Virus record (IMG/VR): IMGVR_UViG_3300042564_001856
Coordinates: 1-40,581 of that record
Direction: 5' to 3' (one strand)
Length of the DNA stretch: 40,581 nucleotides
From: a virus
Below, piece by piece: positions 4,404-39,612 of this stretch. Within the stretch, counting starts at the first letter, position 1. Each line of letters opens with the position of its first letter. The notes under the pieces are model-generated. The model saw nothing but the letters and a program-made list of their open reading frames with translations. It searched no databases and had not been told where the DNA came from. Position numbers and translations under genes: made by a program.

Positions 4404-4410
4404 TATTTAT
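4404..4410 (+). promoter_or_regulatory. candidate late element (TATTTAT variant)
   Basis: TATTTAT followed by T lies 17 bases before the ATG of the 4428 gene, in the divergent gap opposite the primase promoter. It matches seven of eight bases of the TATTTATA octamer found before other virion genes here, and lies first upstream of the plus-strand fibre cluster. As an AT-rich heptamer it is weak on its own. Confidence 0.4.
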
Positions 4411-4427
4411 TGAGATAACCTAAAGAA

Positions 4428-4643
4428 ATGAGCACACAAATAACTATAAGTAATATTACCGGAGTATCTCCTTTTAAAGTGTATCTATGTGATAACCCTA
4501 TTACTTTATCAATATATATAGACACAATTTCAACATTCCCATATAATGTGACAATACCACCTATTTGGAGTTCGTTAACATCTTTTAATATAAAAGTTAT
4601 TGATAATAATAATTGTGAATCAATTTTAAATCTAACATTATAA
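4428..4643 (+). CDS. small Ig/SprB-like domain protein
   Basis: A 71-residue protein that looks like a single beta-sandwich domain: ISNITGVSPFKVYLCD near the N terminus and FNIKVIDNNNCES near the C terminus. These echo the core pattern of SprB repeats (G-x-x-P-Y/F at one end and V-x-D-x-x-x-C at the other). It is a clear paralogue of the 101-residue protein at 7784-8089, sharing the ITG-x(2)-PF/Y-x-VY/IY-x-CD start and the IKVI-x(4)-CE end. It has no signal peptide, so it is probably a virion component rather than a secreted protein. It opens the plus-strand fibre cluster and is one base from the next gene. The exact role is unknown; a small fibre or capping piece is a guess. Confidence 0.65.
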   Translation: MSTQITISNITGVSPFKVYLCDNPITLSIYIDTISTFPYNVTIPPIWSSLTSFNIKVIDNNNCESILNLTL

Positions 4644-4644
4644 T

Positions 4645-5550
4645 ATGCCGTGTAGTTCTACATATTGCCTTTCAAACACTGGTTACCCAACATTTAACGA
4701 CCTATACTTTAGTGCAGGGACATGGAATTCTCAACTATATTGGACCGGTCAAACAAATGGATTATCCATTTATTATAACACAGGGTCAACTCAATGGTGT
4801 TTATCAACAGTTTTAGACGGGTCTTGTCTTTTATCGGGTCAATCACCTTGTTTCAACCCGTGTCCGGATTTAGATGATGTTTATTTTTCTATTGGAGCGT
4901 GTCCAACACCAACTCCCACACCAACATTAAATTGTGCAAATTTAAATTTCTCAGCAATATTTGATTGTGATTTTGAAACAACTCCAACACCAACTGTAAC
5001 TAGTACAACTACATTAACACCTACACCAACACCTACACCAACTAAATTTTGTAATGTAGTTATAAGTGCAACAATTCAAAGTGTTACTTCCACTCCAACA
5101 CCAACACCTACAATGACCCCGACACCATCGGCACAAATTGCTCGTACTTGTACTTTTGAACAAGGGGTAACTTTCAATACAATTGATGATAGTATTGTAT
5201 GTCCTTATAGTTATCAATTCCAAAATTGTTATGACGGTACGATGTATTATACCACAAATCAATTAGTTACACCAGGAAATATCCCAATTGAAAATTTTCA
5301 AGTTTATCAAGCTAACGTTAATGGGACAGTAATATGTGTTGGATATATTGGGGTTAATAATAACACAATCGGTATTGATGATATTACATTACTAATTGGT
5401 CCTTATGGAAGTCAAATAGGTGCGGATTGTATTTTATGTTCAGAATCAATTATACCTACACCAACTCCAACTCCTACACCAACATCTTCAGGAATTCCAT
5501 CTCCGTGTATTGATTGTGGATTAGAGGGTTACTTATATAATAAAACTTAA
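4645..5550 (+). CDS. Cys- and Thr/Pro-rich fibre/adhesin-like protein
   Basis: A 301-residue protein built of small cysteine-containing domains joined by Thr/Pro linkers. Residues 1-88 form a Trp/Tyr/Cys-rich domain (GTWNSQLYW, STQWCLST). Linkers of alternating Pro and Thr occur at about residues 90-97, 113-132, 150-168 and 271-282. A larger domain spans about 170-265 (starting CTFEQGVTFN), and a short tail ends with CIDCGLEGY. There is no signal peptide or membrane segment. The Thr/Pro tracts resemble mucin-like spacers that hold binding domains away from a surface, and the same tracts recur in three other virion proteins in this window. No enzymatic motif is seen. A phage surface-binding role is inferred from composition and neighbours. 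Confidence 0.65.
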   Translation: MPCSSTYCLSNTGYPTFNDLYFSAGTWNSQLYWTGQTNGLSIYYNTGSTQWCLSTVLDGSCLLSGQSPCFNPCPDLDDVYFSIGACPTPTPTPTLNCANLNFSAIFDCDFETTPTPTVTSTTTLTPTPTPTPTKFCNVVISATIQSVTSTPTPTPTMTPTPSAQIARTCTFEQGVTFNTIDDSIVCPYSYQFQNCYDGTMYYTTNQLVTPGNIPIENFQVYQANVNGTVICVGYIGVNNNTIGIDDITLLIGPYGSQIGADCILCSESIIPTPTPTPTPTSSGIPSPCIDCGLEGYLYNKT

Positions 5551-5560
5551 AAATTAAAAT

Positions 5561-7780: not shown

Positions 7781-7783
7781 TAT

Positions 7784-8089
7784 ATGACAGCAATTAACAT
7801 ACAAGCAATTACAGGTTCAAACTTCCCGTATACAATTTATGCGTGTGATGTTTATGGTAATCATTGTGCGTTAATTGCAACAATAGTTACTTCAGTACCT
7901 CCGGATAATATTATTGTGTTACCTTCACAATTTAATAATGTTGCCGCAGTAGGTATTAAAGTCATTTATGGGGATGGTTGTGAAAGATTTGAAGTGGTAT
8001 ATTGTAACTTATTACCACCAGTTCCAAAACAATTCCAAGATTACGAATATTTTGAATTTATGGACTTTGAGATATTCGATTTCCAATAA
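7784..8089 (+). CDS. small Ig/SprB-like protein, paralogue of the 4428 gene
   Basis: A 101-residue protein with one predicted beta-sandwich domain (residues 1-73), alignable by eye with the 71-residue protein at 4428-4643: both share an ITG-x(2)-P-F/Y start, a CD pair at about residue 22 and an IKVI-x(4)-CE end. It adds a C-terminal tail that is strikingly acidic and aromatic (YEYFEFMDFEIFDFQ), which the paralogue lacks. Such a tail could be a docking peptide for another virion protein, but this is a guess. It follows the 739-residue gene by three bases and is followed by a 30-base gap carrying a TATTTATA element. Function unknown. Confidence 0.65.
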   Translation: MTAINIQAITGSNFPYTIYACDVYGNHCALIATIVTSVPPDNIIVLPSQFNNVAAVGIKVIYGDGCERFEVVYCNLLPPVPKQFQDYEYFEFMDFEIFDFQ

Positions 8090-8094
8090 CGAAC

Positions 8095-8102
8095 TATTTA
8101 TA
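8095..8102 (+). promoter_or_regulatory. candidate late element TATTTATA
   Basis: An exact TATTTATA lies 17 bases before the ATG of the 1724-residue fibre gene, inside the only 30-base gap between it and the upstream gene. The same octamer precedes several other virion genes in this window. Confidence 0.5.
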
Positions 8103-8119
8103 ATATAAAACAAAAACCA

Positions 8120-11100
8120 ATGATTTTAACTCAAAGAACATATTCACCATCAGGGTTTACAACAAGTCAAACATTAATTCACATTGTTGATACTAATAAC
8201 CCGACTCAAAATCCTGCAGGTTCATCATATAAATCAACAATCGATGAAGCAATTAGTGGTTCACCATTTGTTGTAATTGTAAGTGGTACAGGTGTTAACT
8301 CATCAATTAGAAGAGATGTTAATAATCTTGCATCAGGAGATAATTCCGGTGCTTTAGGTGGATATTCAAACTCAGCAACTACAAACTATTCAATGGTTGT
8401 TGGTGGACGACAAAATGTAGTTAGTGGAGGAACACATTCGTTTATTGGAGGTGGTCGTTGTAATACGGTATCAAATAATGATTCAACTATAAGTGGTGGT
8501 TTTTGTAATAGTGTTTCAGGTGGTACATCAACAATTGGTGGTGGTCTTTATAATAGTATTTTTGTGGGTGTTGGTAAAAATGTAACACGAAGTTCTACAA
8601 TTGCTGGAGGTTATTGTAATATTATTTGCAATAATTCAATAGGAAGTACAATTGGTGGTGGTAGTAAGAATACCTTATCAGATAATTATTCTTTTATTGG
8701 TGGGGGACTTTGTAATACCTCATGCGGTGGTTCAACCGTAGGTGGTGGTCAAGAAAATCAAGCATTAGGAGACAATTCATTTATTGGTGGTGGTATATTA
8801 AACTCATCAACAAATATAACCTCAACAATAGTTGGTGGTCAACAAAATACCGCATCAGGAAACAATTCATTTATTGGTGGTGGTATTTCAAACTCAGCAA
8901 CAACAGATTCTTCAGTTGTAGTTGGGGGGTCTAAAAACATAATTAGTGGTGGGACAACATCATTCATTGGTGGGGGTGATTATAACAGAATATCAGGAAA
9001 TACTTCAACAATAATCGGTGGTTGTTGTAATGTTGTTATTGGGCCAAGAAATACAATTGGTGGTGGTGGATATAATTTAGCATGTGTTATTGGTCCAGGA
9101 GCAAATAGTGGTGATGCAACTATTGCCGGTGGTTATTGCAACTATGCCTTAGCGAATAACTCAACTGTTGGTGGTGGAGCGAATAACAAATCTTATTGTG
9201 ACAGTTCAACCATTGGTGGTGGAATGCAAAATACTGTTTGTGGAGATAAATCAACAATTACTGGAGGTAGATGTAATATTACCTGTAGTCCTTATTCATT
9301 CATTGGTGGTGGAAAATCAAATATTGTGTATACAGTATATGGTACGATTGGTGGTGGTTGTTGTAATATCTCATCAGGAGCTACATCATTTATTGGTGGT
9401 GGTCGTCGAAATACCGCATCAGGAAATTGTTCAACAATTGGTGGTGGTTATCTTAACTGTTCAGTAGGTGGTTGTTCAACAGTTGGGGGAGGTTGTTTTA
9501 ATACCTCATGTTGTAATTACTCAACAATTGCCGGTGGTAGATTTAATTTTATTTGTGGAACATCTTCTTCAATAGGTGGTGGGTTTAACAATCGTATTAC
9601 TAGTAATACACTGAACCCATCAAATTCAGTAATTGCCGGTGGTATTAGTAATACAATATGTAACGAATTTGGATTTATTGGTGGTGGTAGAAGTAATATG
9701 ATATCGGGTACAACAGGCGTTGGTGAAGATGGTGTTATTGGTGGAGGATTAAATAATAAAACATATGGAGTTAGAGCAGCAATTTTAGGTGGATGTGGAA
9801 ACTGTTTAGGTCAATGTTCTTATGGTGGTGGTATTGTAAGTGGTAATAATAATAGAGTCGTAGAAGACTTTGGTGTTATTGGAGGCGGAAGCGTTAATGT
9901 AACATTTGCTAGTCATTCAATGATTGGTGGTGGAGCATTAAACTTTATAGGTAATTCTCAAGTAATATCATCATATTCGGCAAACACTTGTACAATACAA
10001 TTGTACGGGAATCAATTATCATCATTTAGTGTAAACGACCTTTTATTAACATATGACAATTTTGGATGTAGTAGAAACGTAGTTATTACAGGTCAAACAT
10101 ATTCATCACCATATACAAACTTATATGTTACTGGAGCAACTGCCGCAATGGGAGCGTTCCCTTCGTCACAACCACTTTTACGAAATTTTACAACAAGTTC
10201 AGGTGGATTTTGTCAAGGATTTATTGGGGGAGGTATTGGTAATACCGTATCAGGTGCCACTTCAAGTATTGTTGGTGGTAGTCAAAATACTATAACAAGT
10301 ACCCATTCATTTATTGGTGGTGGTAGAGGTAATATATCATCCGGTAATTATTCATCAATATTAGGTGGTTCGTCTAATAATACTAGTGGTTGCACATGTG
10401 CTATGATTGTTGGTAGTAATATAACTGCAAATAGAAATTGTACAACATTTGTTAACGACATGATTATTGACTCTATGAGTACTTGTAGTGGTTGTTATGT
10501 TGGAGTTAGCACAAATGGACTTTTAGTACCTATTGCCGGTGGTGGAGGTGGTGGTTCATCAGCCGTAATTATAACCGGAACAGGTGTTAACTCATCTGTT
10601 AGATGTGGTGTTAGTAATCTTGCATCGGGAAATTGTAGTGCAGTATTAGGTGGGTCATCAAACTCGGGAACAACAGATTTTTCAGTTGTAGTTGGGGGAA
10701 ATCAAAACATTATTAGTGGAGGAACTCATTCATTTATTGGTGGTGGTTGTGGTAATACTGTTTCTGGTAGTACTTCAACAATTGGTGGTGGTTATAAAAA
10801 CACAGCATCGGGGGCATGTTCATTTATTGGTGGTGGTAGTAGTAATATTGCTTCAGGTCCTCATTCAACAATTGGTGGGGGTTTTAGTAACGAATCTAAT
10901 GGTAATTATTCAACAATAGCCGGTGGTAGAAATAATACAGTCTCTTGTAATTATACATTTATTGGGGGAGGTATAAATAATAACGCTTTAGACTATTGTA
11001 CAACAATTGGTGGTGGTGTTGGTAATATAGTATCTGGTACCTCATCAACAATTGGTGGTGGTAATCAAAACACAGTTTCAGGTAATTTTTCATTCATTGG

Positions 11101-13294
11101 TGGTGGAAGTTTAAATGTCGCCACAGGGCAAACTTCAACAATTGCCGGAGGTAGAAATAATACATCAGGAGGAATAGATTCAACAATATCCGGTGGTAGA
11201 AATAATACCGCGTCAGGAAATTGTTCATTTGTTGGAGGTGGGTGTAAGAACATAGCATCGTCTCAGTATTCAACAGTTGGTGGTGGACAATCTAACACAT
11301 CTTCATGTTTTAGGTCAACAATTGCCGGTGGACTAAGTAACACATCTTCAGGAGCTTATTCATTTATTGGCGCTGGATGTTGTAATATAGCATCAGGTAA
11401 TACCTCAACAATTGCCGGAGGTTGTAAAAATGTGACATCAGCATTATCATTTGTCGGTGGTGGTACTACTAATTGTGCTATCGGTAATTGTTCGTCAATT
11501 GTTGGTGGTTCAGGAAATACAGTATCAAGTGTGTTTTCAACAATTGGTGGTGGTAAATCTAATTATATATCTTCATATTATACTAAATATTCATCTATAG
11601 TTGGGGGACAATCTAATTGTGTTGGATACGGTTATCAGTCATTTATTGGTGGTGGTTGTTGTAACATAGTTTATGGTACTAGTTCCGCTATCATAGGAGG
11701 CCGTAAAAACACCGCATGTGGTAGTTATTCAATCATATCAAATGGATTTTGTAATTGTGCACGAAGTGGTTCATTTGTTGGTACAGGTGTCTGTCATCTC
11801 TCATGTAAGTCATCATTTGTTGGTGGTGGTTGTAAAAACACCTCTTCCGAATATTTTTCATTTGTAGGTGGAGGTACAGGAAACACTTCAAGTAATTGTT
11901 TTTCATTTGTGGGTGGTGGATATTGTAACACCGCATCAGGATGTACTTCATTTATTGGTGGTGGTAGTTGTAATTTATCTTCAGGTTGTTGGTCAACTGT
12001 TGGTGGTGGTTTTAAAAACACGGCATCATGTTGTTTTTCAACAATAGGTGGTGGTAATGGTAATACGGCATCAGGTTTACGTTCTTTTGTAGGTAGTGGT
12101 GGTGGTAACATATCATCATCAACTTCAACTGTTGTTGGTGGTGGTAATTGTAATACGGCATCAGGAGTTTATTCATTTATTGGTGGTGGTTCAAATAATA
12201 CATCATCAGGTTCTACTTCAACAATTGCCGGTGGTAGATGTAATACATCAGGTGGAATAGATTCAACAATAGGTGGTGGTAGATGTAATACGTTATTAGG
12301 AGAATATTCATTTATTGGTGGAGGTCGAGAGAATAATTCAGTATGTAGAGATTCTTCTATTGGTGGTGGACGAGGTAATTGTGCTAACGGTTATCGTTCA
12401 ACAATTGCCGGTGGTGGTTTTAACACAACACAAGGTACTAACTCATTTATTGGTGGTGGTAGAAGTAATATCGCCTCAGGTGTTGATTCAACAATAGGTG
12501 GTGGGTTTTGTAACACCGCATCAGGGTGTACCTCAGTTATTGGTGGTGGTATAAGTAATATCGTTTCAGGATTTTTTTCAACAATAGGTGGTGGATGGGA
12601 TAATACTGTAAATGGAAATCGTGCAACGATTGCCGGAGGTTTTTGTAATTCAGCAAGTGATAATTATTCAACTGTTGGGGGTGGTAGAGAAAATACCGCA
12701 TCGGGGGCAAATTCAACAATTGGTGGTGGTCAACTAAATGTCGCATCTGGAGCATCTTCAACAGTAACGGGAGGTTTTCTTAATAGAGCGTATGGAGAAA
12801 ATTCATCTATTATTGGCGGTAATAGAGCTTGTGCTCCTCGTTTTGGACAAAGGTCGTTTGCAAATGGAACTTGGACACCATTTACCGGTACAGGTGAGAC
12901 ACAACAAATAGATTTATTAGGTAGAAATACAACAACAGGTGTAACAACTGTTAACATTTTTTTAGATGGTTCATCACAAAGAATATCAGTTTTAAACGAA
13001 ACCGCAATGTTTGTTACTATTAATATTGCAGGAATTACTAGTGGTGGTACATCAGCAGCTCACTATATAAGAAAAGTTGCCATTAAAAATGTAGGTGGAA
13101 CAACTTCATTAATTGGTGCGAGTCCGGTATCAACCATAGGGACAGATGTTGAAGATAACGCTTTGTATGACGTTACAATATCTGCGGATGATACAAATGA
13201 TGCTTTAGATATACAAGTAACCGGTGCTGTTGGAGATACTATGAGATGGACAGTCCATATTAGTGGAGTTGAAATAAAATATTCTTGGACTTAA
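8120..13294 (+). CDS. giant trimeric fibre with YadA-head-like GGG repeats
   Basis: A 1724-residue protein. Residues 1-52 are a possible attachment region. Residues about 53-615 are about 37 tandem 15-residue units of the form S-x-IGGG-x-x-NTASG-x-x, the GGG variant of the YadA trimeric-autotransporter head repeat that forms a left-handed beta-roll trimer. Residues about 611-699 are a non-repeat insertion (NTCTIQLYGN). A few more repeats follow, then a linker with a run of six Gly (about 769-817), and a second block of about 50 repeats (817-1571). Residues 1571-1724 resemble a C-terminal domain I know from many phage tail fibres (pattern LDGSSQRISV, then ADDTNDALDIQVTG). This is most likely a long trimeric tail fibre for host attachment. 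It has no signal peptide, unlike true autotransporters. Many repeats carry Cys at fixed positions. Confidence 0.85.
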   Translation: MILTQRTYSPSGFTTSQTLIHIVDTNNPTQNPAGSSYKSTIDEAISGSPFVVIVSGTGVNSSIRRDVNNLASGDNSGALGGYSNSATTNYSMVVGGRQNVVSGGTHSFIGGGRCNTVSNNDSTISGGFCNSVSGGTSTIGGGLYNSIFVGVGKNVTRSSTIAGGYCNIICNNSIGSTIGGGSKNTLSDNYSFIGGGLCNTSCGGSTVGGGQENQALGDNSFIGGGILNSSTNITSTIVGGQQNTASGNNSFIGGGISNSATTDSSVVVGGSKNIISGGTTSFIGGGDYNRISGNTSTIIGGCCNVVIGPRNTIGGGGYNLACVIGPGANSGDATIAGGYCNYALANNSTVGGGANNKSYCDSSTIGGGMQNTVCGDKSTITGGRCNITCSPYSFIGGGKSNIVYTVYGTIGGGCCNISSGATSFIGGGRRNTASGNCSTIGGGYLNCSVGGCSTVGGGCFNTSCCNYSTIAGGRFNFICGTSSSIGGGFNNRITSNTLNPSNSVIAGGISNTICNEFGFIGGGRSNMISGTTGVGEDGVIGGGLNNKTYGVRAAILGGCGNCLGQCSYGGGIVSGNNNRVVEDFGVIGGGSVNVTFASHSMIGGGALNFIGNSQVISSYSANTCTIQLYGNQLSSFSVNDLLLTYDNFGCSRNVVITGQTYSSPYTNLYVTGATAAMGAFPSSQPLLRNFTTSSGGFCQGFIGGGIGNTVSGATSSIVGGSQNTITSTHSFIGGGRGNISSGNYSSILGGSSNNTSGCTCAMIVGSNITANRNCTTFVNDMIIDSMSTCSGCYVGVSTNGLLVPIAGGGGGGSSAVIITGTGVNSSVRCGVSNLASGNCSAVLGGSSNSGTTDFSVVVGGNQNIISGGTHSFIGGGCGNTVSGSTSTIGGGYKNTASGACSFIGGGSSNIASGPHSTIGGGFSNESNGNYSTIAGGRNNTVSCNYTFIGGGINNNALDYCTTIGGGVGNIVSGTSSTIGGGNQNTVSGNFSFIGGGSLNVATGQTSTIAGGRNNTSGGIDSTISGGRNNTASGNCSFVGGGCKNIASSQYSTVGGGQSNTSSCFRSTIAGGLSNTSSGAYSFIGAGCCNIASGNTSTIAGGCKNVTSALSFVGGGTTNCAIGNCSSIVGGSGNTVSSVFSTIGGGKSNYISSYYTKYSSIVGGQSNCVGYGYQSFIGGGCCNIVYGTSSAIIGGRKNTACGSYSIISNGFCNCARSGSFVGTGVCHLSCKSSFVGGGCKNTSSEYFSFVGGGTGNTSSNCFSFVGGGYCNTASGCTSFIGGGSCNLSSGCWSTVGGGFKNTASCCFSTIGGGNGNTASGLRSFVGSGGGNISSSTSTVVGGGNCNTASGVYSFIGGGSNNTSSGSTSTIAGGRCNTSGGIDSTIGGGRCNTLLGEYSFIGGGRENNSVCRDSSIGGGRGNCANGYRSTIAGGGFNTTQGTNSFIGGGRSNIASGVDSTIGGGFCNTASGCTSVIGGGISNIVSGFFSTIGGGWDNTVNGNRATIAGGFCNSASDNYSTVGGGRENTASGANSTIGGGQLNVASGASSTVTGGFLNRAYGENSSIIGGNRACAPRFGQRSFANGTWTPFTGTGETQQIDLLGRNTTTGVTTVNIFLDGSSQRISVLNETAMFVTINIAGITSGGTSAAHYIRKVAIKNVGGTTSLIGASPVSTIGTDVEDNALYDVTISADDTNDALDIQVTGAVGDTMRWTVHISGVEIKYSWT
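8275..12830 (+). repeat. degenerate 45-bp tandem repeat array
   Basis: About 90 imperfect 45-base units encode the 15-residue GGG repeats of the fibre protein; the most constant piece is ATTGGTGGTGGT. The array is interrupted at about 9952-10215 and 10425-10570. Its two halves both open with the same cap sequence (GGTGTTAACTCATC at about 8293 and 10584), indicating an internal duplication. Such an array can change length by recombination or slippage and may be hard to assemble from short reads. Confidence 0.85.
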
Positions 13295-13470
13295 ATATTT
13301 TCTTGTTTGGTTTTATTCAAACCCTCATAAATCCTTAAAAGTTTTAAGGATTCGTTGTAGTTTTTTTCTAATCTATCTAATTCTTTTTCGTTGACACCTT
13401 TTTCACAGGCTTCTTCGTAAATTTTTTTAGATTCAGTTACCAAATTCGATATTGTTCTAATCAGTTTCAT
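13291..13470 (-). CDS. small antisense helical protein
   Basis: A 59-residue frame on the minus strand within the plus-strand fibre cluster. It begins MKLIRTISNLVTESKK and is almost entirely charged and helical (Lys/Glu-rich, with heptad-like Leu spacing at about 31-47), so a short coiled coil is likely. The stop codon overlaps the end of the fibre gene by three bases on the opposite strand. An exact TATTTATA lies five bases upstream of its ATG on its own strand, which supports real expression. It occupies the only sizeable gap in the cluster. It is the sole minus-strand gene between 4428 and 20955. Function unknown; an assembly helper or regulator is conceivable. Confidence 0.6.
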   Translation of the reverse strand: MKLIRTISNLVTESKKIYEEACEKGVNEKELDRLEKNYNESLKLLRIYEGLNKTKQENI

Positions 13471-13474
13471 ATTA

Positions 13475-13482
13475 TATAAATA
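13475..13482 (-). promoter_or_regulatory. candidate late element TATTTATA (minus strand)
   Basis: Read on the minus strand this is an exact TATTTATA, ending four bases before the ATG of the 59-residue gene. Its orientation follows that gene, not the surrounding plus-strand genes, which argues for a strand-specific signal. Confidence 0.5.
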
Positions 13483-13516
13483 TCATCATCTTTACCATTT
13501 ATTACATTTGATTGTC

Positions 13517-13523
13517 ATTTATA
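13517..13523 (+). promoter_or_regulatory. candidate late element (ATTTATA variant)
   Basis: CATTTATA lies about 25 bases before the ATG of the glycosyltransferase-like gene and differs from TATTTATA by its first base. An overlapping TATTTAA follows directly. It lies in the divergent gap 13471-13548. Confidence 0.35.
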
Positions 13524-13548
13524 TTTAATTAAAAACGTTTTATATAAT

Positions 13549-14529
13549 ATGATTTTTGTTACAGCACAACCTGATGTACCTTATTTCCATTGGCAAATAA
13601 TGGTGTATATACATAACTTTATTGAACATGGTGTTCCCCCTAATCAAATACACGTATTACTTGGAATAATAAGTAAAGATGGTAAACCAACTAAAGAATC
13701 TTTAAAATTAAAAGATACCGGAGTTAACGTACATCATTATATCGACGATAGACCTCAAAAACATTATATACCGACAGTTAAACCTTTTTTAATTTCAAAA
13801 TGGTTAAAAGATTTTCCTGAACATGGTAAATGTTTCTTCTTACACGATTCTGATATTATATTCAGAAAATTACCAAATTTTGATAGTTTAATTAATGACG
13901 ATATTACTTACTTATCCGATACCATAGGTTATATCGGATATAACTATATTATGGATTGTTGTAATCGTTATGAAAGTGCTCACCCTACATCCGGTAAAGG
14001 TCAATTACTTAACGAAATGGCCGACGTTATTGGTGTGTCAGTCGAATGTATCGAATGTAATCAAGAAAATTCAGGTGGTGGTCAATACCTAATTAAAAAT
14101 ACGGATTGGTTATTATGGGAAAAAATTTATGCAGATTGTGTTCCACTATATGACCAAATGTTAGATTATCAAAGAAGATTCCCAATAAGTCCCGGTGAAA
14201 TTCAATTTTGGACCGCAGAAATGTGGTCATTATTATGGAACTTATGGTTACACGGAATTGAGACAAGAATTACACCCGAGTTTGAATTTTCATGGGCAAC
14301 CGACTCAATAAAAATATATGAAGATAAACCAATTCTTCATATGGCGGGTGTGACCGGTAATCAAAAACAAGATAAATTTTATAAAGGAGATTTTATTAAT
14401 ATTAACCCATTAGATAAATTAAAAGAGGATATTAACTTTTTTGATTATGTTAGTTCTCAAAGTTCAACAAAAAAATATGTAGAAGTTATGAAATCTTTGG
14501 TAAAAAAACAAATAAAGGATTATTTATAG
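13549..14529 (+). CDS. GT-A-fold glycosyltransferase-like protein
   Basis: A 326-residue soluble protein with the hallmarks of a GT-A nucleotide-sugar glycosyltransferase. It starts with a beta-strand (MIFVTAQPD), has a DxD-type metal motif in FFLHDSDIIF (D100, D102), a GGGQYLIKN segment (about 176-184) like acceptor or donor loops, WTAEMW (about 221-226) and a late His in ILHMAGV (H264) where many GT-A enzymes place the third metal ligand. The arrangement vaguely recalls hydroxyproline O-arabinosyltransferase-like enzymes, but I hold that link loosely. It lies between the giant fibre gene and the LRR-like/Thr-Pro-rich gene, so virion fibres are plausible acceptors; modification of host glycans or phage DNA is an alternative. 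The fold call is moderate to good; the substrate is unknown. Confidence 0.7.
   Translation: MIFVTAQPDVPYFHWQIMVYIHNFIEHGVPPNQIHVLLGIISKDGKPTKESLKLKDTGVNVHHYIDDRPQKHYIPTVKPFLISKWLKDFPEHGKCFFLHDSDIIFRKLPNFDSLINDDITYLSDTIGYIGYNYIMDCCNRYESAHPTSGKGQLLNEMADVIGVSVECIECNQENSGGGQYLIKNTDWLLWEKIYADCVPLYDQMLDYQRRFPISPGEIQFWTAEMWSLLWNLWLHGIETRITPEFEFSWATDSIKIYEDKPILHMAGVTGNQKQDKFYKGDFININPLDKLKEDINFFDYVSSQSSTKKYVEVMKSLVKKQIKDYL
14521..14528 (+). promoter_or_regulatory. candidate late element TATTTATA
   Basis: An exact TATTTATA overlaps the last codons of the glycosyltransferase-like gene and lies 21 bases before the ATG of the 750-residue gene. Because part of it is coding, it is less certain than the intergenic copies. 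Confidence 0.4.
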
Positions 14530-14549
14530 TATAACAGAAACAAATTATA

Positions 14550-16802
14550 ATGATATATTATTTTCAAACATGTTGCGTCAAATTAAATGAATCCGATAAT
14601 TATTTCGGAGTAAATGACCTTACATTAACAACTCCTATTTTAGGGAATGTTTATGCAATCACAATACCATCATTTAGTGGATGTGCGACACTAATACAAG
14701 GTCCGATACCATCAGGGTCATTAATTTATGATGCTGGAAATGGAAGTGTTGTATTATATCCTAATCGTTCTGATTGTATAGAAAACGCATATAGTTGTTT
14801 TCCACCTCCTCCACCTCAGCCAGCAATTACTTATATTCAATCAAATGAATGTGATGTAATTACAATATTTCCAATGACCGTTGAATGTGAGGTAATAAAC
14901 CCGTCAACTGTTGGTGGTCGTGATGGTAGAGCCTCTATTTCTATTACAGGAGGTACACCACCTTACACCATTACTTGGTCCGATGGTAGTATATCACCAG
15001 CAATTATGGATTTAGAATCGGGGTCATATCCTGCGACTATTGTGGATTCATATGGTGATTTTACGGCAAATACCGTATGCGTATTGTCAGGTCCAACACC
15101 TACACCTACTCAAACACCTACGTTAACACCTACACCAACTCAAACACCTACTTTATCTCAAACGGCATCACCTACACAAACACCTACACAAACATTAACC
15201 ACAACCCCAACTAATACACCTACACAAACACCTACCCAAACTTTAACTCAAACATCAGGGGCTGTCCCTACTAATACTCCAACTCAAACACTGACTCAGA
15301 CATTGACTCAGACACCTACCCCAACTAAAACATTAACACCTACACCAACTCAAACATTAACACCTACATCATCAACACCAATATTACCACCATACGGTCA
15401 AACTTTCACGATGATTGCGAGAAGTTTGAATAGTATCACAGTAAGCCCTTCATTACAATCATTTATAGTAATTACATCTTTACCGTTTAGAGTTGTTTGG
15501 GGAGATGGTAATACAACAAATTATCCGGCAGGGTCAATTAACATTACACATACGTATTCAACACCTTACACAGGAAACATATTAATTCAGACAGCAGATT
15601 TAACATCTATAACCCAATTATCACCTGGAGGTGTGTCTCCTCAAATAACTTCAAATAGTGTTAGATATTTAGAAGTCGAAACTTCTCAAATAAATATTTT
15701 AGATGGATTAACAACATTTGGTAATTATGGTTCTGGTTTTTTCACATCAGGTAATATAAGTTTATTACCATCAACGTTAATTTCTTTTGCGTCAAACTTA
15801 ACTAGTTGTTCCGGAAATGTTGCAAATTTACCAAGCAGTTTAGAAACATTTGGTGTAGATTTATTCCAGAGTCTCCCAAACCAATCAAATAATATATCAG
15901 GTAATATATCTAATTTACCGACAACATTAAAAAACTTTTTTGTTGGTGGTAATAATACTATAACTGGTAATATTGGTAATTGCCCACCATTAATGGAGGA
16001 TTTACAGATTACAGGTCAAAACACTATCACTAATGACATTTCTTTAATGTCAACACCTAATTTATTTAGAATACAATTAAGAGGACTTAATACTGTTTCA
16101 GGTGATTTAGGAGGTTTATCTAATTCTGTAACTGTTATACAATTATATGGGCAAAATTCTGTAACAGGTGATATATCAACATTACCACCAAATCTAACAT
16201 TCTTAGAGGTTGCAGGTAGTAACACTCTCTATGGTAATATTGGAACATTAAATTATACAACGTTATCTACAATAATTATTCTGGGGAATAACACTATTTC
16301 AGGAAATATTAGTGGTGTTAATTTAAAAACTAATGCAAGTTTAAGATTAGATGGTAATAACACTGTTACAGGAAATATTAGTGGTTTAGGTAATTCTTAC
16401 ATTAATCAACAATTATATATTAATGGTAATAATACAATTTCAGGAAATATTCAAGATTTACCATCTAACAATCGTAATGTTACTATACTAGGTAATAACA
16501 CAATATCTGGTGATTTATCATTAGTTCATTTAAATATTAGATTTTTAGTCATTAGCGGTAATAACACAATATCAACATTCTCAAATAGTTCAAGAATTTT
16601 TACTGATTTAAATCAAATTGAAATACTTGGTAGTGGACTTAATAGTACTAACATTAATAATTTATTAACGAGTTACGCATCATCAACTTGGTCGGGTATT
16701 AAACTATTAGCACTTAATGGAACTTCATCACCACCATACACTAACTATACATCCTATAGCACTCTTCAAACAACAAAAGGTGTAACAATATCAATATCAT
16801 AA
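14550..16802 (+). CDS. multi-domain adhesin: SprB-like, Thr/Pro linker, PKD-like, LRR-like solenoid
   Basis: A 750-residue protein in modular order. Residues 1-90 form a Cys/aromatic domain (MIYYFQTCCVKL). Residues about 118-180 are one SprB-like repeat (DGRASISITGGTPPYTITW, then a Ser-Gly-Ser-Tyr turn). Residues about 180-279 are a mucin-like Thr/Pro/Gln linker. Residues about 300-345 are a PKD-like segment (VVWGDGNTTNY). Residues about 390-690 are a solenoid of some 12 units of about 23 residues with the core GNNTISGNI, resembling BspA-type leucine-rich repeats. There is no signal peptide, which fits a virion protein rather than a secreted one. LRR and Ig-like modules commonly bind proteins or glycans, so host receptor recognition is likely but inferred. 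It ends one base before the next gene. Confidence 0.7.
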   Translation: MIYYFQTCCVKLNESDNYFGVNDLTLTTPILGNVYAITIPSFSGCATLIQGPIPSGSLIYDAGNGSVVLYPNRSDCIENAYSCFPPPPPQPAITYIQSNECDVITIFPMTVECEVINPSTVGGRDGRASISITGGTPPYTITWSDGSISPAIMDLESGSYPATIVDSYGDFTANTVCVLSGPTPTPTQTPTLTPTPTQTPTLSQTASPTQTPTQTLTTTPTNTPTQTPTQTLTQTSGAVPTNTPTQTLTQTLTQTPTPTKTLTPTPTQTLTPTSSTPILPPYGQTFTMIARSLNSITVSPSLQSFIVITSLPFRVVWGDGNTTNYPAGSINITHTYSTPYTGNILIQTADLTSITQLSPGGVSPQITSNSVRYLEVETSQINILDGLTTFGNYGSGFFTSGNISLLPSTLISFASNLTSCSGNVANLPSSLETFGVDLFQSLPNQSNNISGNISNLPTTLKNFFVGGNNTITGNIGNCPPLMEDLQITGQNTITNDISLMSTPNLFRIQLRGLNTVSGDLGGLSNSVTVIQLYGQNSVTGDISTLPPNLTFLEVAGSNTLYGNIGTLNYTTLSTIIILGNNTISGNISGVNLKTNASLRLDGNNTVTGNISGLGNSYINQQLYINGNNTISGNIQDLPSNNRNVTILGNNTISGDLSLVHLNIRFLVISGNNTISTFSNSSRIFTDLNQIEILGSGLNSTNINNLLTSYASSTWSGIKLLALNGTSSPPYTNYTSYSTLQTTKGVTISIS
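15091..15385 (+). repeat. Thr/Pro/Gln-coding low-complexity tract
   Basis: A run of short units related to CCAACTCAAACACC encodes a roughly 100-residue linker of alternating Thr with Pro, Gln or Leu. Related tracts lie at about 4900-5130 and 5455-5490, at 18430-18610 and, in opposite orientation, at 21675-21915. Short stretches of near-identical DNA are shared between them. Confidence 0.8.
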
Positions 16803-16803
16803 C

Positions 16804-17829
16804 ATGGAAATAGAATATAATTTTTGTCTAAATATAAGTATTAATAACTTACAAATTCATTTTAATCCAAATGGATTAGATGATAATGGATATAATCAAT
16901 GGGTGTCTGATGATTACACTTATTCAATTAATTGGGACGTTTCATTAAGTAGATGGAAATTGAATGGTGGTAATCTAACTTATTCAGTATTTTCTTCCTT
17001 ACCATCTTCTGTACCCCCACTTAACTCTTGGTATATATTAGGAGCTAACGGAACTGTTTATGCTAACGAAGGTGTTTGTAATCCATTAGGAATTAACTCA
17101 TTAACTTTTAGTGTTAATCAACCAATATGTACTTGTGATGGTAATTTAATGATTAATCTTTCGGGAGGTTATCCTCCATACCAATATTCAATAGATAATG
17201 GTGTCACTTATTTTAATTCACCAATTTTTAATAATTTATGTTCGGGTATGTATAGTGTTAAGGTGATTGATTCAAGTGGTAACACAAATAGTAATAATGT
17301 AAAATTAAATGAACCGGCACCTCCGACATTATATCAATTAAAATTAAATACAACAATAACAAATCCGGTTAATACAAATACAACACTAACTAAACAATAC
17401 ACAACAACTTTTAGTGTTATTCCTGAATTACCAAGTGGAGTAATAGTTAATTTTAACATATTACATTATAATACTTTTTACTATTCTCCAAGCGCTACCA
17501 CAGCAACTTTAACTACTAATACTGTGTTATCTAAAAATAATGTTTCTATTCCACTAACAACAAGTGGTTTAACAACAACTAACACTGATTATAATCCATT
17601 ACAAGGATGTCAGAATTTAACAAATTATTTAGATTATTATACTGAAAGTTGGAATTCTTTAAGTTTTACATCTTCAGATAGTATCATATTAAATACTACA
17701 ACGACAATAACACAAAACGACCCATTAACCCCTTGTACTTACACATCAAGTCAGGATTCATTCTCAATTGGTAACGCAAGTATTAGTGGTTGTGGATGTT
17801 GTAGAGTAGAAATAATAAGTGTCAATTAA
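16804..17829 (+). CDS. SprB-like repeat virion protein
   Basis: A 341-residue protein. Residues about 1-95 form a Trp/Tyr-rich domain (YSINWDVSLSRWKLNGG) that resembles the first domain of the 4645 protein. Residues about 98-172 are a typical SprB-like repeat (CDGNLMINLSGGYPPYQYS, then GMYSVKVIDSSGN). Residues about 175-325 are a Thr/Asn-rich beta-type domain. The C terminus is Cys-rich (CGCCRVEI). SprB repeats are known from flavobacterial gliding adhesins, where they form the surface filament. Here the absence of a signal peptide and the location within the fibre cluster suggest a virion surface protein. It is tightly linked to the preceding gene (one-base gap). Confidence 0.65.
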   Translation: MEIEYNFCLNISINNLQIHFNPNGLDDNGYNQWVSDDYTYSINWDVSLSRWKLNGGNLTYSVFSSLPSSVPPLNSWYILGANGTVYANEGVCNPLGINSLTFSVNQPICTCDGNLMINLSGGYPPYQYSIDNGVTYFNSPIFNNLCSGMYSVKVIDSSGNTNSNNVKLNEPAPPTLYQLKLNTTITNPVNTNTTLTKQYTTTFSVIPELPSGVIVNFNILHYNTFYYSPSATTATLTTNTVLSKNNVSIPLTTSGLTTTNTDYNPLQGCQNLTNYLDYYTESWNSLSFTSSDSIILNTTTTITQNDPLTPCTYTSSQDSFSIGNASISGCGCCRVEIISVN

Positions 17830-17847: not shown

Positions 17848-17855
17848 TATTTATA
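17848..17855 (+). promoter_or_regulatory. candidate late element TATTTATA
   Basis: An exact TATTTATA in the 30-base gap before the 829-residue gene, ending four bases before its ATG. This is the same short spacing as at 13475-13482 and 39578-39585. Confidence 0.5.
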
Positions 17856-20989: not shown

Positions 20990-23900
20990 TTATTGACAAT
21001 CACCTGCAGTCACAAAAATTTCTAAAGTATCTGTTGGTAAAATTGTTACACCCGTAAATGAAACATCTATAAATAAAACCCCACTTGAGAATGTCCCTAT
21101 TTGTGACGCTGCTACAGAACCATTAACGATTAATGAAATACAAATATTTGTATTTGATTCATTAATTGATTGAATCGTAATAAATATAGTTTCATTGTTA
21201 ATACCGTTATGTGTACCATACATAGGATTTAAGACCCCTACAGGGAAATTATATGTATTATCATATAGGTAGAACGGTGGTTGTACATCTATGATTTGCG
21301 AATCATCTTTTGTAACACTAATAAGGAAATTATTTGTTGGTTCTAAAATTAATTCAATATCTTTCTCGCATAATCCACAAGCATCAACAGCACCATTTTG
21401 TGAATCGTAAATACCATTACCAATTGTTGTAAAATAATTAGTGTTCCAAATTTGAACATTAAATTGTGGTGGTAAGTTTGTTGGTTGTCCATTATAAATT
21501 TCTCTTAATATCCAACACGTTACCTTACCATTTTCATCAGTAAAAGTAAATCCGTCACCAACACCTAATAAAGGATTTACTAATATAGGTTGTAAAATTA
21601 AGTAGGCCGGTCCCTCAGTATTAACATCAACTTCACATGATGTATATAAATACCATAATTGTTTTGAACTAGGAGTTGGTGTCATAGTTGATGTAGGTGT
21701 TTGAGTTGGTGTTAATGTTTGAGTTTGAGTTGGCGTTAATGTTGGTGTTTGAGTTGGTGTTGGTGTTAATGTTTGTGTTAATGTTTGAGTAGGAGTCGGA
21801 GTTGGTGTTAATCCAGCAGTTGATGTAAGAGTTTGAGTTGGTGTTGGAGTTTGAGTTAATGTTTGAGTTGGTGTTGGAGTTTGTGTTGGAGTTTGTGTTG
21901 GAGTTTGTGTTGGCGGTAAACTACAATATTGACATGAAATATTATATTCAATAAACATATCAACAGTAACATCAGTTGTCACTAAATATTGTTCTTGACA
22001 TTTAGCAATTATTTGAATTCCGTTGTTTAATGGGTCAATGTTAACTTGAGCGACTTGGTCAAAAGTTTCTAATAACGCGACTAAAGCGTCAAAATATTCA
22101 TTATCTGTTGGAAAATCATTTAAAGCATAACTTGTATAAAACTCTGAAGTTTCTGTTACATCACCAATAGTTGCAACTATATTAAAAATTGCTTGATTAA
22201 GTAAACAATTTGTATATCCTGATGTTAAATCATAATAACCTTCATTCAACATTTCTTTAGGACCTTTTTTAACTAATTCCCCAATGTTTTCAAATTCACT
22301 ATCACAAATATTAAATGTTTGAAATGATGAGATAGAGTCAAACCCATCTATTGTTACCTCTCTAATTTTAACACACGCTTCACTATCCGTGATTTGTAAA
22401 CTGTATGTTCCGGCACTTAAATTACTTAAATAATACCCTGTTTGACCATTTACGTTATTACTCCATAATAATGTGAATGGAGGTGTTCCACTTGTAATAT
22501 ATGCTGAAACTGTACCATCATTACCATTGTTAGCATCAGTACCTGATAACATAAAATCAACGTTGTTTGATGGGTTAATCATAAAACTACTTGTTTGTTT
22601 ACAAATAATACCAGGAGTTGATTCTGTTATTTCTAACGAATAATCTCCGGAATATAAATCAATAAAAGTATATGCACTTAATGGTGTTTGGATAGAGTCA
22701 TAAGAAAATTCACCCCCAACAGTATATGTGTAAGGCGGTGTACCACCTGATACTGTAATCATTACATAACCATTATTTAAATTACATATTGTATCTGTAG
22801 TATCTGCAGTAAACGTAAATAAAGGAATATTATTTATGGTGATAGGTGGACTAACATAAGTACAACCTCCATTATCAGAAATAGTTAAAGTATATGTCCC
22901 CGTCGCTAAATTAGAAAAAATCCAACTTCTAAAATCAGTAGGTTCAATAATACTATTACCTAAAGAATCTGTTAAAGTATAAGTAAAAGGAACTGCACCA
23001 CCACTTACCTGAATATCTATTTTACCATCACTATTACCACAATTTGAATTAGTTGTCGTTACACTTACGATATTAAACCCGTTTGGTGGAATAATTGTTG
23101 TTGTTGGAGTTATTTTACATAAAGCTGCGTCAGTAACTTCAACAGCAAATGGTCCACCACCAATATTATAAAATGTTTGAGATGAACTAAAAGAAACCTC
23201 TATAACACCTGTCGATGCTGAATAATAATATGGTCCAGTCCCTCCTGTAATTACAAGAGTCACTTGACCATCATTATTAAAACATGTTGGTGGTATGGCG
23301 GTAAACGACCCAAAACCTAATGGTTCAACTTCAGTAACTGTTGCTGTTTGAGATAGGGTACACCCTAAACTATCAGTAATAAGAACAGAATAACTACCCG
23401 CAGTCAATCCTGTAATAAAATCGTCTGTCCCTCCATTAGACCATAAATAAGTAAATGGTGGTGTTCCGGTAAGACCTGTTACATATATTTTCCCCGAATC
23501 AACATTAGCACATCCGGAATCCATTACAGTATAAAATCCCCACGTAATATTTGTCGAAGGTTGAATAATAGTTGTTTCACTCTGACCACTACATCCACCA
23601 CCATCGTCAGCATTAACATAGTATATACCCGGAGATAAATTATTAAAAATATAATTATTGGTAAATGATGCGCCTGAAGTAATAAAACCTGTTAAGGTAT
23701 TATACAAACTAAACGTACTTATACCATAAAGATTAGACGTTTGTCCTGTTATTGACCCATTATTGTCATTACACGTCGTGTTAGATATTCCAACAATACT
23801 TGCACATGTACCACTAGATATGTTAATATTCACCGGCAATGAACTCATAGTGGGTGAACATGAATCAAGAATGTTAAATGAATATGTTCCCGCGGACAAT

Positions 23901-24079
23901 GTAGTCGCGGTATAACCTGTAACTCCGACACCTAATACAATAGTCCCTAAAGCAGGATTAACCCACTGAATACTATAATCCGGTGCGGTTCCAGTTATAT
24001 CAATACTAAAACCACCTAAATTAGAATTAGTACAATCTCCCGATAAACTCGTTAATACATATGATAAACTACAAGCCAT
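20990..24079 (-). CDS. SprB-repeat virion adhesin with Thr/Pro linker
   Basis: A 1029-residue protein. Residues about 1-585 hold some seven SprB-type repeats; clear cores include [26 protein letters not shown] and [12 protein letters not shown], each followed by a G-x-Y-x-x-x-I-x-D-x-x-x-C segment. Residues about 590-720 form a domain ([15 protein letters not shown]) whose end resembles the C terminus of the adjacent 1005-residue protein. Residues about 723-801 are a Thr/Pro/Gln mucin-like linker, and 801-1029 a C-terminal domain pair. SprB repeats are known from the flavobacterial gliding adhesin. With no signal peptide, and as the last gene of the baseplate operon, this is probably a baseplate-attached fibre. 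It overlaps the upstream gene by one base (TAATG). Confidence 0.75.
21675..21915 (-). repeat. Thr/Pro/Gln-coding tract, inverted relative to the others
   Basis: On the minus strand this encodes about 80 residues of Thr alternating with Pro, Gln and Leu. Units such as ACACCAACTCAAACACC also occur in the plus-strand tract at 15091-15385, making long-range inverted repeats across the fibre region. Confidence 0.75.
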
Positions 24080-27000: not shown

Positions 27001-27096
27001 ACCCCCCGTAACTAGTTGGAAACCAACTAAATCATCAGAGAATGAACTTGCACCGGATGGACCTTGTGGAGGACATGTAAATTTTTGTAATGCCAT
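24079..27096 (-). CDS. large baseplate/tail structural protein
   Basis: A 1005-residue protein in the baseplate operon with no signal peptide or membrane segment. A central stretch (about residues 440-475, [17 protein letters not shown]) recalls the helical pattern of phage tail protein I/gpI-type baseplate proteins, in which a similar L-x(3)-KGT motif is common; this is a weak analogy. The remainder is beta-rich. The C-terminal 110 residues ([13 protein letters not shown] to the end) resemble a middle domain of the neighbouring SprB-repeat protein. Stop and start overlap by one base with both neighbours (TAATG), so it is translationally coupled. The most likely role is a baseplate wedge or fibre-connector subunit, based on size and context. 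Confidence 0.65.
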
Positions 27097-28013: not shown

Positions 28014-28022
28014 ATTATTATT

Positions 28023-31910: not shown

Positions 31911-31911
31911 A

Positions 31912-37200: not shown

Positions 37201-37213
37201 AATAATCTTTTTT

Positions 37214-37221
37214 AATAAATA
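37214..37221 (-). promoter_or_regulatory. candidate late element TATTTATT
   Basis: On the minus strand TATTTATT lies 13 bases before the ATG of the 1762-residue gene, within the 71-base gap 37201-37271. It differs from TATTTATA at the last base. This is the only sizeable gap inside the baseplate operon. Otherwise the gap is AT-rich with no hairpin that I can see. Confidence 0.4.
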
Positions 37222-37271
37222 GTTTATATACTATTTTCAAAAGATAATTCAATAAATTTTAAAATAAATTG

Positions 37272-39110
37272 CTAAGAGAAATTAACCGTTTTAATATTTT
37301 TAACTCTCACATTGATATCTTTGTTTGGATATCTAACTTGATACACTTGTCTTGGTTCGGCAAAAATTGTATCATCAACTAATTCAATTTGTTTAGTTTC
37401 CGAATCAATATATCTTTGTGATGTTTGAGAGGAAGAATATTGACCACCAACTTTATTAAAAAATGTCATGTCAGAAACGGAAATAACCCCATTTTCACTT
37501 TGAACTAATCTTCTTAATTCTGATACATTAACATTTTCACCCATTTCTTGGTTTGTTGGGTCAAAATAATCTGTGATTATATTAATTATTTGAGAAATAA
37601 TAGAACCTTGATTTTGTGAATTGTCTAACACAACGTCAACATTTATTGCTAAATCAATAACATTTGCACTTTCAATTGACACATAATCATTAATCATACG
37701 ATAATTTGACAGGTAGTTTGCAACATTATTTTTTAAAGTGTTTGAAACAATCTCAGTTAATCTACCAGTTTCATCATATGATAACATTTGAACTTTAATT
37801 TTATTATTCTCTTCAGTTATCGCAACTTTAGCCGGTGCTCCAAATTGTGAGGGCATTGTTCTAATGATTGATTCATAATCATTTACTGTAACTGCTCTGT
37901 TTTGTGCTGTAAAGTTATATGAAACTAAATTTCTAACTTCTTCTGTTGTTGGATAGTTTGCCCCACCAATAGCCGCTGTAATATTATTACATCTTAATGA
38001 ATTAACCACAGTCGTATTAACTGATTCAGATGGACCATTCACAAAAAATGAAACTGTACCAATTTGTGTTATAACCCCAACACCTAAATTAGTTCCTGTA
38101 CCACCACCAATTCTATATTGAACAAATAATGTGGTATTAGGTTTTAAAGTACTACCTAATGCGAAGTTATTAGAATATTTGTATAAATTTAATGGTTTAC
38201 CATCTCGGGCAAATTCTCTTAATTGTTCATCAGCCGATTGACTACCACCACCAAAGGTCATTTTAAAGAAACCTTCAGGTGTAAATTCTGTTATGAATTT
38301 AGTTGCGGTATTCACATATCTACCAACTTTAATACCAGGGTTATCCGAAACTTTTGTTGGGTCTTCAATAAACACTCTATCTTGGGCTAAAGCCTGTACT
38401 TCAAACCATCTATTATCAACACCTAAAAATTCTTGATTTGAGGGTACATTGGCGTATTGAGTTCCATCTTTTAATAAAACACTTGTTACTCCTAAAACGG
38501 TCTTTTCAGGTAAAAATAATTCAAAAAATGGTCTAACATCATTTGCGGTAATAACTCTTTTAAAAACTTTAGTTATACCATTAACAACGGTCTCACGTTT
38601 AACAATTGTATAATTTAATAACTTATTGTTTGAGTCGAAATTTGGGATTTTTAGTCTATTAGGAAATCCGTCTGCGTTTGATGGTGAAGAAAAATCAATA
38701 TCATAAACAGTTTCAAATACTTGACCCGCGCCACTTACTTGAGAACCTCTACGTAGAATACCACAATACCTTAAATCCTCTTTATCTCCAAAAGCAGGTA
38801 CAGTTATTGAAAAATCAACTAAAGCAACTGAAGGTCTTTGACCCGGAACTTTTAATCCATAAGTTTTGGCGATGTTAAATACTGATGACCTTTGTTGAGC
38901 GTACTGTAATACCGTTTCTTGAATACTTCTATCTATGTTGAATTGAAGGTTGTCGGTAACCGCAGCGTTTAGGTCTAATAATACAGAGAATACACTCGCA
39001 TCATTAAAGTTGTCAACTAAATCCGGATAATAAGTTCTTGTAAAGTTTATTAACTCGGTTCTAATTGATTGGAAATCTCTCGTAGTATACGATATTTTTT
39101 TATTTGCCAT
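37272..39110 (-). CDS. baseplate wedge protein, T4 gp6-like (baseplate J family)
   Basis: A 612-residue protein close in size to T4 gp6 (660). The N terminus has the typical arm of the family: YTTRDFQSIRTELINF, YPDLVDNFNDASVFSVLLD and then a Leu/Asn/Asp-rich helix. The middle holds a beta-domain, and later segments such as AITEENNKIKV and a YLSNYRMINDYVSIESA stretch match the J-type wedge pattern of phage baseplates. gp6 forms the ring that holds the baseplate wedges together. It follows the gp25-like gene by five bases, as gp25 and J-type genes commonly neighbour each other in phages with contractile tails. Family call confident, though exact equivalence is by order and motif rather than alignment. 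Confidence 0.85.
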   Translation of the reverse strand: MANKKISYTTRDFQSIRTELINFTRTYYPDLVDNFNDASVFSVLLDLNAAVTDNLQFNIDRSIQETVLQYAQQRSSVFNIAKTYGLKVPGQRPSVALVDFSITVPAFGDKEDLRYCGILRRGSQVSGAGQVFETVYDIDFSSPSNADGFPNRLKIPNFDSNNKLLNYTIVKRETVVNGITKVFKRVITANDVRPFFELFLPEKTVLGVTSVLLKDGTQYANVPSNQEFLGVDNRWFEVQALAQDRVFIEDPTKVSDNPGIKVGRYVNTATKFITEFTPEGFFKMTFGGGSQSADEQLREFARDGKPLNLYKYSNNFALGSTLKPNTTLFVQYRIGGGTGTNLGVGVITQIGTVSFFVNGPSESVNTTVVNSLRCNNITAAIGGANYPTTEEVRNLVSYNFTAQNRAVTVNDYESIIRTMPSQFGAPAKVAITEENNKIKVQMLSYDETGRLTEIVSNTLKNNVANYLSNYRMINDYVSIESANVIDLAINVDVVLDNSQNQGSIISQIINIITDYFDPTNQEMGENVNVSELRRLVQSENGVISVSDMTFFNKVGGQYSSSQTSQRYIDSETKQIELVDDTIFAEPRQVYQVRYPNKDINVRVKNIKTVNFS

Positions 39111-39115
39111 ATTCT

Positions 39116-39574
39116 TTAAATATTTAGGATTACAAAATCACTAGCGTTAAACACGTCATTATTTATTTGATAATCTATTTTTACTTTCGCAGTGTGTTCT
39201 TTAGTTCCAATACCCGGTACTCTAAAAACACGTGTATCGTATTGGTCAACATAAGTACCTTTATCTTCTTCACCATCTGATGCCGCGGTGATACTTATGT
39301 TTTTAATTGTTATTCCCGGTATATATTCCTCAACAGCGTCCCTAATTTCAGCATCAATATCTGAAAATGTAGGACCATCTAATGGTTCAAAAATAAATTC
39401 ATACAATCTTGTACCAAAATCGGGTAAAAAATATCTACTTCCTTTTCTAGTCAATAATAAATGTATTAAGTCCGTTCTTGTTTCTTGAGTACTATCTGTG
39501 GAAAGGTCTAAATACTTTCCATCATAAGAATCCCTAAAAGGGAAATTAATACCATATGTTTTTCCATCTGCCAT
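39116..39574 (-). CDS. baseplate wedge protein, gp25/GPW family
   Basis: The frame is open back to 39637, but I start it at the ATG at 39574 (MADGKTYGINFPF), giving 152 residues. The extra 21 residues would be encoded by the terminator hairpin and a promoter-like element. It carries the family signature LLTRKGSRYFLPDFGTR followed by LYEFIFEP, and a C-terminal strand pattern (KVKIDYQI). gp25 is a core wedge protein that binds the sheath and baseplate. T4 gp25 has 132 residues, so this one is slightly longer. It is the first gene of the baseplate operon and has two TATTTATA elements upstream. Confidence 0.9.
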   Translation of the reverse strand: MADGKTYGINFPFRDSYDGKYLDLSTDSTQETRTDLIHLLLTRKGSRYFLPDFGTRLYEFIFEPLDGPTFSDIDAEIRDAVEEYIPGITIKNISITAASDGEEDKGTYVDQYDTRVFRVPGIGTKEHTAKVKIDYQINNDVFNASDFVILNI

Positions 39575-39577
39575 ATC

Positions 39578-39612
39578 TATAAATATAGTGTCGTAATTAT
39601 TTCTTATAAATA
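39578..39612 (-). promoter_or_regulatory. two candidate late elements TATTTATA
   Basis: On the minus strand two exact TATTTATA octamers, at 39612-39605 and 39585-39578, precede the gp25-like ATG at 39574. The nearer one ends three bases before the ATG. They lie between the nrdA terminator and the first gene of the baseplate operon, the position expected for its promoter. Confidence 0.55.

Follow-up and report, generated by a model that had tools for sequence, protein, structure and literature searches.

An octamer in a viral DNA of 40,581 nucleotides (nt) from IMG/VR (record IMGVR_UViG_3300042564_001856) is predicted to be the core of a phage-specific promoter class. This 40.6-kb stretch, with a G+C content of 32.6%, was analysed at its full length and is referred to here as the window. 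The octamer, TATTTATA, is best written as part of a longer core, (A)TATTTAT(A), which we propose is read by a divergent sigma factor related to gp55 of phage T4 and frequently gives rise to leaderless mRNAs; we assign this reading a probability of about 0.75. The window encodes gp6-like and gp25-like baseplate proteins, ribonucleotide reductase, primase, an SbcD-like nuclease and an exonuclease. Its sequence identifies it as part of a large T4-related phage, the host of which is probably a member of the Bacteroidota.

Following a search of IMG/VR with the window gp6 protein, hundreds of close relatives were identified, of which contigs of 318 kb (G001), 215 kb (G002), 272 kb (G003) and 99 kb (G004) were used here as jumbo relatives. 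Genes and start codons of these contigs were called with a home-made, simple program based on codon usage. Because the four contigs and the window are mutually related, octamer counts among them are not independent. At 25-29% identity, gp6 also matches proteins of Flavobacterium phage immuto (host: Flavobacterium sp. LMO8), the uncultured LR756508 and Microcystis phage Mel-JY01; immuto and Mel-JY01 are far more distant from the window than the four contigs are.

Position and strand of the octamer

The raw count of the octamer in the whole window (15, with 11.4 expected) shows no excess, and nine of the exact copies fall within genes, so the evidence for the element lies in its position and strand. 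In the 40 nt upstream of 27 window genes, six exact copies were found on the coding strand, before five genes, and none on the opposite strand; a resampled null gave a mean of 0.43 boxed genes and a maximum of 4 in 5,000 resamplings. An initial annotation, made from the letters of the window alone, had listed these six octamers and had argued that their placement and strand spoke against chance. All six are present where they had been reported (Table 1), and the argument holds both in the window and in its relatives. Taken alone, one-mismatch copies barely rise above noise, and support from relatives is needed to give them weight: they precede 10 window genes (null mean 5.2, maximum 11), with four on the other strand. 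Of three one-base variants in the initial annotation, those before the genes starting at 4428 and 37200 are kept in relatives, while CATTTATA, before the gene starting at 13549, receives no support from them and was rejected as a form of the box. The statement that every virion gene with an upstream gap of at least 20 nt carries the octamer is correct if variants are counted but not for exact copies alone. Abutting genes lack it, as had been noticed, and the same is true in the relatives.

When the window and the four contigs were analysed together, gaps between tandem genes contained 129 copies of TATTTATA on the coding strand and 28 on the other, with an order-1 Markov expectation of 10.4; the coding-strand count is approximately 12-fold over this composition null. 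Eighteen of the 28 other-strand copies are overlapping palindromes (TATTTATAAATA). Divergent gaps carry the octamer equally on both strands (29:29), convergent gaps carry hardly any (2:0 in 44 gaps), and 875 kb of coding sequence gave 75:58. This is the distribution over gap types that is expected of a promoter, and the idea survives the comparison with gene interiors and non-coding strands, in which the initial annotation had located a possible refutation. Raw motif counts in the relatives are uninformative, as they are close to the counts of the pattern read backwards. Among all A/T octamers, the largest strand excess was found for ATATTTAT (115:8) and the second largest for TATTTATA, from which the core (A)TATTTAT(A) is derived. 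The distant relatives agree on the strand (25:7 in immuto and 16:3 in Mel-JY01 for TATTTATA).

Genes behind the box

In immuto, the exact octamer precedes 14 of 25 virion genes with an upstream gap and 7 of 68 other genes (p = 1.3e-5). The genes behind it include gp20, terL, gp18, gp19, the hub gene and that of the tape measure protein; in Mel-JY01 they include terL, gp20, gp19 and others. In the jumbo relatives, gp25, gp20, gp21, gp18, gp19, the hub gene and the im203/im209 orthologs mostly have the box or a close variant, and ssb, recA, nrdA, nrdF and thyA are without it. The term "late" is used here by virtue of this virion-gene bias, to which there are exceptions. Together, strand bias, virion bias and conservation in relatives support the suggestion, made in the initial annotation, of a phage-specific octamer resembling a late promoter.

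Replication genes vary within this clade. A family-B polymerase is encoded in G001, G003 (L101:2473-5259), Mel-JY01 and LR756508, while immuto has a family-A polymerase.

A separate class of host-type promoters

A second motif enriched in the clade is TATCTTTG with a TTTG-like element approximately 20 nt upstream (TTG-N~20-TATCTTTG). On the basis of its sequence, this class is identified as the Bacteroidota sigma-A promoter; it would serve early and other genes and be read by host sigma-A. The host-type and TATTTATA classes nearly exclude each other: two genomes each have a single gene with both boxes, and Fisher tests gave p 0.003-0.006 in three genomes. In the window, the divergent gap 4342/4428 holds both classes, with the host-type box of the primase gene on one side and, directed away from it, the variant late box of a virion gene on the other.

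Two further motifs were seen in the distant relatives. In immuto (L127-L128), 13 genes (for example those with starts at 62184, 63145 and 67621-73812) share TATATTTAGGTA, most extending to TATATTTAGGTATCAATAATTAAAAC and often with AGTTG approximately 25 nt upstream. Most of these genes are small, of unknown function and located away from the virion blocks, and the set is likely an early promoter family. In LR756508, a strand-biased CGTGTAAT/GTGTAA is found before genes and may be its own box.

Spacing and predicted leaderless mRNAs

Exact boxes in G001-G003 fall into two spacing classes, one 2-5 nt from the ATG (mode 3; 35 cases) and the other 9 nt or more from it (mode 12-17), and none lies at 6-8 nt; the short class makes up 35 of 130 exact boxes in the jumbo relatives. 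Host-type boxes are spaced much alike, with a mode of exactly 4 nt. As the sigma-A -7 box of Flavobacterium psychrophilum spans -12 to -5 (PMC9723704), a host-type TATCTTTG at 4 nt puts +1 on the A of the ATG, and a phage box at 3 nt fits a start at that A to within approximately 1 nt. Transcription from boxes 3-5 nt from the ATG would thus begin on, or very near, the A of that codon and produce a leaderless mRNA, while the other boxed genes would have a leader of approximately 6 nt or more. Between roughly one quarter and two fifths of the boxed genes in the jumbo relatives have this geometry, compared with 5.5% of mRNAs reported to be leaderless in F. psychrophilum (PMC9723704). All 35 short-spacing genes begin with ATG, but so do 98% of called genes, and this carries little weight.

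The best-conserved box is found upstream of gp25, where ATATTTAT is invariant across 36 distinct related sequences and lies 3-5 nt before the ATG. Across the aligned relatives, most of the variation in the first codons of gp25 falls on third positions (Asp/Glu at codon 3), and several relatives have a degraded distal gp25 box or have lost it. The simplest reading of this footprint is that gp25 mRNA is leaderless. The guess of the initial annotation that transcripts might be short-leadered or leaderless is thus backed by the bimodal spacing and by gp25.

A candidate sigma factor

The initial annotation had pointed to a phage-encoded sigma factor as something to look for, and a candidate is encoded in the relatives. 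In family-model searches, G001, G003 and immuto each had a weak match of the gp55 type; homologs are also present in Mel-JY01, LR756508 and 217 related stretches in IMG/VR, all in one family (A2). When the A2 profile was compared with all T4 open reading frames (ORFs), gp55 ranked first (E-value: 5e-5; next: 0.05), as it did among PDB sequences (7d7c, E-value: 0.02). An hhalign comparison of A2 with gp55 aligned 115 columns, over the sigma-2 region described for the T4 protein (PMC2988020), at a probability of 15%. An AlphaFold (AF2) model of the gp55-like protein had a mean predicted local distance difference test score of 73 and a predicted template modelling score of 0.43, and the top PDB matches to this fold are mostly sigma factors (best Foldseek E-value: 2e-3). 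The protein is approximately 240-250 amino acids (aa) in length, with a C-terminal helical domain; the immuto member, immuto35A_152, is annotated as hypothetical only. The match is remote but specific; no homolog is encoded within the window, which is a 40.6-kb fragment.

Searches for the gp33 co-activator (phrog_254 and PF16805) and the gp45 sliding clamp (phrog_223 and PF02916) gave no convincing match in the relatives; the T4 control was found in both. Within the clade, gp44-like clamp loaders were identified in Mel-JY01 and LR756508 only, so a divergent clamp is likely in those two. In immuto, neither clamp nor loader was recognised, making it the sole complete cultured record without sign of a T4-type clamp system. 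A search with PF00940 for a phage RNA polymerase had no match anywhere, controls included, and is uninformative.

We propose that the gp55-like sigma factor, with a region 2 related to that of T4 gp55 and an added C-terminal helical domain, redirects host RNA polymerase to TATTTATA. The core (A)TATTTAT(A) would act as a single -10/-7-type box without a -33/-35 partner. The genes it drives would be chiefly those for the virion and for lysis, in a T4-related phage clade of which the majority probably infect Bacteroidota.

Alternative explanations

Several other explanations for the octamer were considered. Chance in AT-rich DNA would agree with the unremarkable raw count in the window, but is refuted by the strand bias in tandem gaps, the excess over the composition null, the invariance upstream of gp25 and the recurrence in immuto and Mel-JY01; we regard it as negligible. 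A translation or mRNA element beside the start codon is very improbable. Boxes do often lie 3-5 or 12-17 nt before the ATG, and Bacteroidota are not reliant on Shine-Dalgarno sequences (PMC9723704), but the spacing ranges from 2 to 52 nt, abutting genes are without a box and divergent gaps have it on both strands. Moreover, the box of Mel-JY01 is mostly 24-52 nt before the ATG with a purine-rich, Shine-Dalgarno-like stretch in between, which indicates that the octamer does not itself serve as a signal for translation.

The two remaining explanations concern the protein that reads the box. Host sigma-A might recognise TATTTATA as a divergent form of its own -7 element, TAnnTTTG, making a phage factor needless; TATATTTA is partly like TAnnTTTG, and immuto early genes bear TATATTTAGG with an upstream TTG. 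We consider this unlikely: the same genomes have the separate TATCTTTG class with its upstream TTTG, almost never at the same gene, whereas TATTTATA has no such partner, and a phage whose recorded host is Microcystis has the same box. Slightly less likely still is that the reader is the sigma-A-like (RpoD-like) factor, with regions 1.2, 2 and 4, that G001-G004 also encode (G004 L136:1081-1881; L137-L139), despite its strong matches to sigma-70 regions 2 and 4. No such factor was found in immuto, Mel-JY01 or LR756508, and as immuto and Mel-JY01 have both the box and the gp55-like protein, the latter is the likelier reader.

Certain observations weigh against a late promoter class read by the gp55-like protein. 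To judge by the PDB E-value and the hhalign probability, the similarity of this protein to T4 gp55 is remote; the template modelling score of its model and the Foldseek E-value also count against the reading. In G001-G004 the sigma-A-like factor could share its role. LR756508 encodes a gp55-like protein (100321-101031 of L225; 40% identity to that of immuto) with no excess of TATTTATA (2 copies, 0.9 expected); it was rejected as a further positive, and it indicates that the pairing of box and sigma factor is not fixed or universal. The box also precedes some non-virion genes, among them a family-B DNA polymerase gene (in two relatives) and a carbonic-anhydrase-like gene, and a definition of "late" as virion genes only is therefore too strict. 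In addition, gene starts in the contigs rest on the home-made caller. We nevertheless favour recognition by the gp55-like sigma factor.

Comparison with known promoters

T4 late promoters consist of TATAAATA and depend on gp55, gp33 and the sliding clamp gp45, and their transcription is tied to ongoing replication. The class described here resembles them in having a lone 8-bp TATA box without a -35 element, virion genes behind it (not exclusively) and a gp55-related sigma factor in the genome. The flanks of TATTTATA in the clade have no conserved upstream element and are A/T-rich downstream, as are those of T4 late promoters (PMC2988020). In contrast to T4, the box is the reverse complement and often 3 nt from the ATG, the searches found no gp33 and recognised no gp45, and the gp55-like protein is longer. 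In the T4 control the strand counts are a mirror image (TATAAATA 12:0, TATTTATA 0:12), and in the clade TATAAATA occurs about as often as expected or modestly more often, largely through palindromic overlap. Equivalence with the T4 late box was therefore rejected, and the caution of the initial annotation on this point was justified. The predicted gp55-type TATA boxes of KVP40, 44RR, S-PM2 and Aeh1 are comparable, and are highly similar to the T4 consensus, with Aeh1 deviating at -13/-12 (PMC2988020). Bacteroidota sigma-A promoters (TAnnTTTG at -7, TTTG near -33) likewise have an A/T-rich box a few nt before the start and co-occur as the separate class; they differ from the TATTTATA class in box, -33 element and gene set.

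We take this to be a real phage-specific promoter class. Its putative sigma factor and box-only architecture make it a variant form of T4 late transcription, but box sequence and gp33 keep it from being a T4 late promoter in the strict sense. No earlier description of such promoters was found in the literature with the search terms used, and as far as these papers show, the TATTTATA box, the divergent sigma factor and the frequent leaderless geometry are new. More tentatively, at somewhat less than even odds, the clade may have a gp55-type system able to operate in the absence of gp33 (and, in immuto, of any recognisable clamp), on a box that is the T4 reverse complement and with systematically leaderless late mRNAs. 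These predictions provide a transcription plan of host-type and phage-type promoters for an abundant freshwater phage group, name a candidate late sigma factor for the cultured phage immuto and raise the question of whether T4-type late transcription can proceed without gp33 and the clamp. The leaderless prediction also bears on start choice by ribosomes not dependent on Shine-Dalgarno sequences.

Features of the window

Table 1. Octamer sites and associated features in the window
Feature	Position	Strand	Remarks
Variant TATTTATT	4404..4411	+	16 nt before ATG 4428; TATTTATT/G in 4/4 relatives
Host-type box TATCTTTG	4347..4354	-	TTG 20 nt upstream; 4 nt before ATG 4342 of DNA primase
TATTTATA box	8095..8102	+	17 nt before ATG 8120 (1,724-aa repeat protein); kept in G001 ortholog (46% identity)
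TATTTATA box	13475..13482	-	4 nt before ATG 13470 (59-aa antisense gene); leaderless spacing; kept in G001, G002 and G003
TATTTATA box	14521..14528	+	21 nt before ATG 14550; overlaps end of previous ORF; kept in G003 (38% identity)
TATTTATA box	17848..17855	+	4 nt before ATG 17860; leaderless spacing; kept in G001 and G003; TATTTATT in G002
Variant TATTTATT	37214..37221	-	13 nt before ATG 37200 (1,762-aa protein); CTATTTAT[T/C] in 24 of 27 distinct upstream sequences
gp6-like baseplate wedge gene	37272..39110	-	phrog_219; query for gathering relatives
gp25-like baseplate wedge gene	39116..39574	-	phrog_261, phrog_43; downstream of best-conserved box
Proximal TATTTATA box	39578..39585	-	3 nt before ATG 39574 of gp25; leaderless spacing
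Distal TATTTATA box	39605..39612	-	30 nt before ATG 39574; variable or lost in relatives
Hairpin and T-run (AATCACGACTTTGGTCGTGATTTTTTATTTT)	39617..39647	-	Putative intrinsic terminator of nrdA-side unit, immediately before gp25 promoters; kept in gp25-upstream alignment

The 59-aa antisense protein (13291-13470, minus strand) starts with MKLIRTISNLVTESK, and its orthologs in G001, G002 and G003 have ..VVTEAK. The proteins of several other boxed genes start with M(K)xIxITESxxxxL. These N-termini resemble the T4-style capsid targeting sequence that is cut by a gp21-like protease; they are weakly enriched among boxed genes (p 0.03-0.19).

The window also encodes putative tail proteins with SprB repeats (14550-16802, 16804-17829 and 20990-24079; PF13573, one below the cut-off), and the 1,724-aa protein (8120-13294) has an LbR_Ice_bind beta-roll. 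In many relatives (L006, L010, L013, L019 and others), the gene between gp6 and the place of the 1,762-aa homolog is different from that in L001. At the same spot downstream of gp6, L067 has a sequence that resembles the N-terminus of a TnpB/OrfB transposase protein.

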